NCBI GenBank assembly: GCA_016217695.1
Contig: JACRHE010000011.1
Span: forward strand, 1 to 34,757
DNA length: 34,757 nucleotides
From: Nitrospirota bacterium
Lineage (GTDB): Bacteria; Nitrospirota; Thermodesulfovibrionia; Thermodesulfovibrionales; UBA6898
Direction: 5' to 3'
Position 1 is the first letter of the stretch. Every line of letters begins with the position of its first letter. The translations under genes and the position numbers were made by a program. Positions 27,656 through 29,362 of the stretch are shown here, in pieces. The notes beneath the pieces were generated by a model. It saw only the letters and a program-made list of their open reading frames with translations. It had not been told where the DNA came from and did not search any database.

Positions 27656-27685
27656 TTGCTCAAAACACCGAAATTCTGTTATAAA
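27656..27685 (+). promoter_or_regulatory. Promoter of the 6S RNA gene
   Basis: TTGCTC (27656-27661), an 18-bp spacer and TATAAA (27680-27685), giving a predicted start near 27692. Confidence 0.55.
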
Positions 27686-27691
27686 ATATGT

Positions 27692-27890
27692 AAGGGTAAC
27701 AAAGGTGATTACCTGCCCTGTAGGTGATATATGAAAAAGTTGATCCGGCAAATTAGATCTTTTGGGAGCCAGCGTGAGGTGTTGGTGTGCATGTTGCCCA
27801 GGTGGCAAAAGCCTGAAGACACCTTTATGGCACCCACCTATACTCTAGGCGGATCTGATTCTTCATGTACACGACAGGGCGGGATTACAA
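27692..27890 (+). ncRNA. ssrS: 6S RNA (RNA polymerase-binding regulator)
   Basis: The apical region matches the conserved 6S core: TTGGTGTGCATG (27782-27793; E. coli differs at one base), a small hairpin TTGCC/GGCAA, then AAGCCTGAA (27809-27817; E. coli AAGCCTTAA). Around it are an apical stem AGGTG/CACCT plus GGTG/CACC, a large asymmetric central bubble (27748-27776 and 27840-27849), and a long closing stem. That stem has GATCCG/CGGATC, ATGAA/TTCAT, GTG/CAC and CCTGCCCTGT/ACAGGGCGGG (27712-27721 with 27874-27883). This is the open-promoter mimic that binds sigma70 RNA polymerase. Length (about 190-200 nt) and position just upstream of rarA also fit. Ends are estimates. A 110-codon ORF across it is rejected. 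Confidence 0.85.
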
Positions 27891-28060
27891 TTCTGATAAA
27901 TCTGGCAGCTATGGTTTCAGTGCTTTTGGGCAGCATCTTCGCAGAAAATAGAGGAAACATAATCTTCGGGCCGGTCTTTGCAGGCCTTGTAATACATGCT
28001 TTAGACAACTTTTCCTTTAATCACAACGTTTTCTCGACGCCAAAAGTCCTCCTTAAACCA

Positions 28061-28079
28061 TAGTCCTGCCCCGGGACTA
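28061..28079 (+). other. Short hairpin just before the rarA start
   Basis: TAGTCC (28061-28066) pairs with GGACTA (28074-28079) six bases before the TTG start of rarA, which has no good ribosome site. It might reduce initiation or end the upstream transcript. The stretch 27891-28060 shows nothing else I can support. Confidence 0.35.
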
Positions 28080-28084
28080 ACAGC

Positions 28085-29362
28085 TTGGAACTTTTTAACA
28101 GGGAAAAGAGAGTACCGCCTCTTGCGTGGAGGATGCAACCGAAGAACTTCGAAGACTTTCTCGGCCAGCCCCATCTGCTCGACAAAAATAAGCCCCTTCG
28201 GCGCCTCATCGAAGATGACAAGATTGTCTCCCTCATCCTGTATGGTCCGCCCGGGACAGGCAAGACCGCGCTGGCTCATATCATCGCAAGAAAGACAAAG
28301 GCTGATTTCATCCCTCTCAATGCTGTTACTGCGGGCATAAAGGAGATCAGGGAGGCCGTCCAGTCCGTCAGAGGGGAAAAGACCATACTATTTGTTGATG
28401 AGATACACCGATTTAACAAGACGCAGCAGGACGCCCTCCTCCCCCATATAGAGACAGGAGAACTGACCCTGATCGGTGCCTCCACTCAGAACCCTTTCTT
28501 TTCCCTTGTCCCTGCGCTTTCCTCCCGGTCTCTGATCTTTCAGTTTTTCCCTATTCCTTCCGGCCTGATAAAAAAGCTTCTAATGAAAGCCCTTTCGGAC
28601 AAAGGGGGACTCGGCCAATACCCTGTTGTCCTGGAAGACAATGCCGCGGATTTCATCGCGTCTGTCTGTGAAGGCGACGCAAGGCGGGCGCTGAATATCC
28701 TCGAACTCTCCTTTTTATCGTCCTCTGACAGTGCTGCGGCCCAATACCGTATTACCCTGCAGCATGCAAAAGAGATGCTTCAGAACAGGTCCATCTACTA
28801 CGATGAAGACGACCATTTCAATACGATTTCAGCCTTCATCAAGAGCATGCGGGGGTCAGACCCTGATGCCGCTGTTTACTGGCTCGCCAAGATGATCGAG
28901 GCCGGAGAGGATCCGTTATTCATTGCCAGGAGAATCGTGATATGTGCATCCGAAGACGTCGGAAATGCCGATCCCCATGCCCTTTGCGTTGCTGTTGCCG
29001 CCATGCATGCTCTCGAAAAAATCGGTATGCCGGAGGGCAGGATTCCCCTGGCGCAGGCGGCTATCTACGTGGCCTCGGCGCCAAAGAGCAATGCCTCATA
29101 TCTGGCGATCGACAAAGCCGCCGGATGCATTCGGAACGAGCCTCTACAGAAGGTGCCGGATCATCTCAGGGACTCCAGTTATAGGGCGGCCGGCCGGCTC
29201 GGCGCAGGAAAAGGATACCTTTATCCCCATGACTTTGAAGATCATTTTGTAAAACAGGACTATATGCAGACACAGAAATCATTTTACACCCCTTCTTCAG
29301 AAGGATACGAAAAGATCATAAAATCACGGCTGCAAAAAAGGAGGAACAGAGCGCATGGATAA
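28085..29362 (+). CDS. rarA: Replication-associated recombination AAA ATPase RarA (MgsA)
   Basis: 425 aa, start TTG at 28085 chosen because [21 protein letters not shown] follows at the family position. Walker [13 protein letters not shown], Walker [21 protein letters not shown], sensor [15 protein letters not shown] and the C-terminal tetramer part ([41 protein letters not shown]). It acts at stalled replication forks. It overlaps rny by 8 bp and follows the 6S gene. Confidence 0.95.

Follow-up and report, generated by a model that had tools for sequence, protein, structure and literature searches.

The window analysed here, the whole stretch of 34,757 nt, is contig C60 of a 221-contig, 3.04-Mb Nitrospirota genome (MAG) near Thermodesulfovibrionales, and it carries a 6S RNA gene, rarA and, reaching from inside the 6S gene to just short of rarA, a conserved reading frame that overlaps the RNA (Table 1). 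The window rarA is closest to those of Nitrospirota MAGs, with at most 74% identity over its full length to that of a Thermodesulfovibrionales MAG. A 6S RNA gene upstream of rarA had been proposed by a sequence-only reading of this DNA, and both assignments were borne out, rarA by its Pfam match and 6S by homology and covariation. Indeed, RF00013 matched the window over the complete model (1-187) with 84.6 bits (E 1.6e-15), above the curated gathering cut-off of 46.4 bits, and this was the sole gathering-level match in the Rfam scan of the 34.8 kb. The 183-nt strand has a folding energy of -74.3 kcal/mol, compared with -52.2 kcal/mol for shuffled sequences (z -4.8), none of 200 shuffles being as stable. 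Across 21 family loci the fold comprises 54 pairs, 18 of which have both sides changed with pairing kept in at least one sequence, and this covariation backs a rod made of a closing stem, an asymmetric central bubble and an apical arm. Moreover, RF00013 matches were found in 53 of 53 good-quality relatives, most of them full-length and above the cut-off, and across the order the gene lies upstream of rarA or rny. The 6S RNA at this locus is, in our judgement, real beyond reasonable doubt.

Table 1. Positions of the features described in the text (window coordinates unless a contig is given).
Feature	Position	Strand	Remarks
Conserved A+T-rich block, TAGTTTATTaAAAAA ... CAATACAAG.TAAAA	27593..27630	+	Upstream of the promoter; strongly conserved, in 22 family loci (nearly all family genomes)
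Putative promoter	27656..27685	+	-35 TTGCTC (27656-27661), 18-nt spacer, extended -10 TG-T-TATAAA (TATAAA 27680-27685)
6S RNA (6S-1)	27707..27889	+	RF00013 and covariation
Closing stem, 5' arm	27712..27721	+	Pairs with 27874-27883
SD-like AGGTGAT then ATG, proposed ORF start	27722..27733	+	SD-like sequence in most intact loci
Conserved reading frame, 110 codons (110 aa)	27731..28063	+	Overlaps 6S; TAG 22 nt before rarA
Central bubble, 5' side, ATCCGGCAAATTAGATC	27743..27759	+	Fully or almost fully invariant among family members
Apical arm with conserved internal loop GGTGTGCATG / AAGCCTGAA	27782..27817	+	Rfam match and covariation
Closing stem, 3' arm	27874..27883	+	Pairs with 27712-27721
Structured RNA element in the ORF tail	27909..28063	+	CTATGGT/ACCATAG, CTTTTGG/CCAAAAG, AGAGG/TTTCT-type helix, hairpin
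Hairpin TAGTCC..GGGACTA before rarA	28061..28079	+	Read from sequence and alignment
rarA (mgsA), AAA+ ATPase	28085..29362	+	Pfam MgsA_C, 229.9 bits
6S-2 class RNA (L135), ~160 nt	G000:C42:624-783	-	31.2 bits; adjoins homoserine dehydrogenase
Third 6S-like match (L134), apical part only	G000:C123:4154-4261	-	41.4 bits

The motifs on which the earlier reading relied are in place, namely TTGGTGTGCATG (27782-27793) and AAGCCTGAA (27809-27817), whose noted one-base differences from E. coli 6S RNA agree with the E. coli sequence, and the closing arms CCTGCCCTGT and ACAGGGCGGG, which are complementary with one G-U pair. Compared with 6S RNA/SsrS (RF00013; E. coli ssrS, B. subtilis bsrA), the window RNA has the full model, the closing stem, the asymmetric central bubble and a length of 183 nt, and it shares the apical arm with GGUGUGCAUG/AAGCCUGAA. 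A 6S gene adjoining rarA is already known in Firmicutes, from B. subtilis 6S-1 and lactic acid bacteria (PMC8414754), and the window shows the same neighbourhood; taken alone, the 6S gene is an ordinary finding.

Upstream of the RNA, promoter-like blocks, CTTGC(T/C) and TATAAA, are conserved in the 22 family loci. Because a strict sigma70 consensus scan did not pick up these boxes, a promoter of its own for 6S is inferred from their conservation, and transcription would be expected to start close to 27692. Within the span of 27692-27890 given in the earlier reading, Rfam places the RNA at 27707-27889, and the left boundary of the span lies near this expected transcription start. Within the central bubble, ATCCGGCAAATTAGATC is the likely template for pRNA, with synthesis starting opposite C27749, a candidate start that fits the rules of GG at pRNA position 4/5 and an adjacent A (PMC8414754). 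In two genomes the apical arm of 6S carries an insertion of about 60 nt, resulting in lengths of 249 nt (G031, L152 2001-2249) and 245 nt (G043, L202); the insertion in G031 is 63 nt long and the reading frame is still open.

The ORF at 27731-28063 is present as noted by the sequence-only reading, in which it was dismissed as spurious, a view that our data do not support. The frame starts at 6S position +25, so that its first 53 codons lie inside 6S and about 58 lie beyond the 6S 3' end. Among the 22 family loci with complete 6S, it starts with ATG or GTG, ends 108-116 codons later, before rarA, and is open in 21, being broken in G015 by a TAA directly 3' of 6S. Three further family genomes with contig-edge fragments (G013, G007 and G023), whose 6S is cut by contig ends and which played no part in forming the hypothesis, have stop-free tails too. 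Because the constraint on the 6S RNA conserves the first 53 codons, these are weak evidence, and the roughly 58 tail codons constitute the real test. Past 6S, the 22 genomes contain one stop in frame, whereas the five alternative frames contain 79, 48, 107, 52 and 34, in a count for which the G009 region was truncated. Permutation of alignment columns, done on the full ORF and preserving composition and shared ancestry, gave a mean of 72 stops in the tail when all columns were permuted and 46 when only variable columns were (minimum 14 in 2000 permutations), versus the one observed. In the 6S part, the same procedure gave a mean of 17.8 in-frame stops versus none observed, with 1 of 2000 permutations as low. 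Insertions and deletions also respect the frame: the linker from the 6S end to the next conserved block and the inner lengths change in steps of three nucleotides, the sole exception (G008) carries a compensated indel pair, and the sole 1-nt indel in the family 6S alignment precedes the start codon.

At the protein level, the three closest genome pairs gave a pN/pS of 0.23 in the ORF frame (p 2e-5) versus 0.65 and 1.20 in the other two frames, a sign of purifying selection, with 9, 4 and 17 differences at the three codon positions. The ratio was 0.64 over nine pairs, 0.65-0.84 in wider pairs, indicating weak protein conservation, and 0.85 within the 6S part, where there is no signal. Since the frame-shifted control nearly equals the ORF frame over wide pairs (pooled ratio 0.68 vs 0.65), only the closest-pair value was used. 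The segment just past 6S is hydrophobic, with a mean best 18-residue hydropathy of 1.8 compared with 0.6 and -0.1 in other frames and 0.45 in shuffles. The window ORF protein had no match in Pfam or NCBIfam, which led us to reject its identification as a known protein, and its AlphaFold (AF2) model was uninformative (pLDDT 48). Taken together, stop avoidance, frame-keeping indels and the closest-pair pN/pS indicate that the overlapping reading frame is under selection, as is characteristic of a dual-function small RNA, and selection on the tail frame is very probably for translation.

To follow the frame beyond the family, we scored whether it is open over 6S plus 150 nt, with expectations taken from shuffled tails. 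By this measure it was open in 21 of 22 family loci (1.2 expected), and in 10 of the 26 loci of the first order-level set (0.9 expected). Among held-out loci, the order contributed 3 open frames in 20 loci (0.5 expected, with P 0.01), the remainder of the class 7 in 14 (0.5 expected) and other classes 1 in 6 (0.6 expected). In the pooled held-out order set, tail stops in frame 0 were no fewer than in other frames. Many other families, f10 and f13 among them, have lost the open frame and keep their 6S RNA. These losses, together with the 6S sequence conservation that fixes most of the first 53 codons and the pN/pS in the 6S part, are what would be expected of a plain 6S RNA overlapped by a chance frame that stays open through RNA conservation and shared ancestry. 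However, the 58 tail codons are not part of 6S and hold far fewer stops than any ancestry-keeping permutation, and half of the held-out class loci outside the order are open, so that we consider a chance frame quite improbable. The earlier reading had set conservation of the ORF in relatives against the 6S call. This condition is borne out in part, as the frame is guarded against stops and frameshifts across the family, but the 6S call stands, because lineages without the ORF retain the RNA, which likewise makes 6S function independent of the ORF.

The position of the start codon needs separate consideration. The A/G of the start codon (columns 41/179) belongs to a 6S base pair with compensatory change on both sides, in which A/G pairs with U/C in the stem. 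We therefore rejected ATG/GTG conservation as coding evidence, as it proves nothing by itself in a covarying 6S pair, and the SD-like matches at the ORF start are descriptive, having no expected value. Families f3 and f11 have the 3' end of 6S in another frame, yet the frame fixed by its 5' part remains open into the tail; the frame follows the 5' part of 6S, and we therefore argue that the start lies in the 5' half. Alternatively, a small ORF might start only in the 3' half of 6S or just after it, the 5' half never being translated. G039 and G239 have a frame change within the 3' bubble and nevertheless an open tail frame, which points away from a start in the 5' half, and most of the family has an in-frame AUG in the apical arm. 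Against such a late start, the frame in f3 and f11 keeps to that of the 5' part despite indels in the 3' half, and no conserved start with an SD sequence was found in the 3' half of 6S. We regard the late start as unlikely and a proposed start inside the 5' half of 6S as probable.

Beyond 6S, the tail of the frame also forms an RNA structure, in which the CTATGGT/ACCATAG and CTTTTGG/CCAAAAG arms are nested. Paired cells make up 92% of the alignment and both sides have changed in 10 pairs, values reached by none of 500 shuffles, and in slid controls the paired share dropped to 40-54%. Searches against Rfam up to E 10 returned sub-threshold, chance-level matches only, on which ground a known RNA family was rejected for the element. 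The hairpin before rarA and the ACCATAG arm share bases and are mutually exclusive for this reason, and their competition could be a translational switch for rarA. In genus g7 (G012 L015, G006 L156), however, rarA is gone from this place, leaving a remnant of its first codons before rny, and the frame and tail are kept. Control of rarA is therefore not the whole explanation of the tail, and the candidate role of a leader for rarA only is weakened.

This bears on whether the peptide itself has a role, on which we are evenly divided. The frame might be translated only as a leader with an idle peptide, the ribosomes keeping Rho off the 6S-rarA-rny transcript or opening the hairpin over the rarA ribosome-binding region. 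Weak amino-acid conservation beside strong stop avoidance would fit such a leader, as would the ORF stop codon, which lies in the conserved arm overlapping the pre-rarA hairpin, whereas the low pN/pS in the closest pairs, the consistent hydrophobic segment and the retention of frame and tail in g7 speak against it. On balance, we think a leader with an idle peptide rather unlikely.

The reading that we favour, and hold to be fairly probable, is that of an ordinary 6S RNA with a read-through transcript that also serves as mRNA for a small hydrophobic peptide. By analogy with the 6S family, the canonical RNA would mimic an open promoter and so bind the housekeeping RNA polymerase holoenzyme, from which pRNA synthesis would release it. 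No terminator was found directly 3' of the window 6S, and transcription therefore probably continues into the 110-codon frame. On the resulting mRNA, the frame would begin inside 6S (RTG at 27731, preceded by the SD-like AGGTGAT) and end just before rarA. Transcripts that undergo the presumed processing would serve as 6S RNA, and unprocessed read-through transcripts would be translated into a small peptide, putatively functional, with a hydrophobic segment after its 6S-encoded part. Thus, the 6S stretch may also encode a small, predicted protein. As a wider and tentative extension of this favoured reading, 6S would be bifunctional: one stretch of DNA would specify the regulator of the housekeeping RNA polymerase and also form the 5' half of a gene for a small membrane peptide, and RNA processing would determine which use is made of it, in an arrangement that would be old in this Nitrospirota class and repeatedly lost. 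A point against our favoured explanation is that translation through 6S would unfold the 6S RNA.

6S RNA is regarded as purely non-coding, and a limited search of the open literature turned up no case in which a conserved ORF overlaps it. Unlike known 6S RNA/SsrS, the window 6S has no terminator directly after it, and a conserved frame crosses into the downstream region. Dual-function small RNAs such as SgrS/SgrT, RNAIII/hld and SR1/SR1P combine a regulatory RNA with a conserved small frame, as the window does. In systems of the SgrS/SgrT type, a base-pairing sRNA contains or adjoins the frame. In contrast, the window frame crosses 6S, a protein-binding RNA that would lose its fold on being translated, and extends about 58 codons beyond the 3' end of this RNA. 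Should the 6S transcript be translated as well, the cell would have to decide between inhibiting the polymerase and making the peptide, a coupling that would be new and testable. For annotation, dropping ORFs that lie over RNA genes would here delete a frame protected by selection.

In addition to the window 6S, the genome contains two further, sub-threshold RF00013 matches, on contigs C42 and C123. Paralogous 6S-1/6S-2 pairs are known from B. subtilis, and tandem copies from the B. cereus group (PMC7726162). Like B. subtilis, the window genome has a second, diverged 6S, the C42 RNA, with its own predicted promoter; unlike the copies in both B. subtilis and the B. cereus group, it is unlinked to 6S-1, about 160 nt long and of a type that mostly falls below the Rfam cut-off. 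RNAs of this type occur in 22 of 27 family genomes, score 28-49 bits, and have 40 pairs, 12 of them compensated on both sides (22 genomes), with a conserved TTGAC box and a TAAAAT-like box upstream. Judged by this conserved structure and these promoter-like boxes, the C42-type RNA is a clear 6S-2. RF00013 at its cut-off thus misses the second 6S RNA in most of these genomes. The C123 match fits neither the family 6S-1 nor the 6S-2 class. A third 6S class, grouped by eye and in most cases with a closing stem directly followed by a U-run, was seen in G010, G011, G014, G015 and, twice, G020 (loci L125, L129, L131, L132, L121 and L142).
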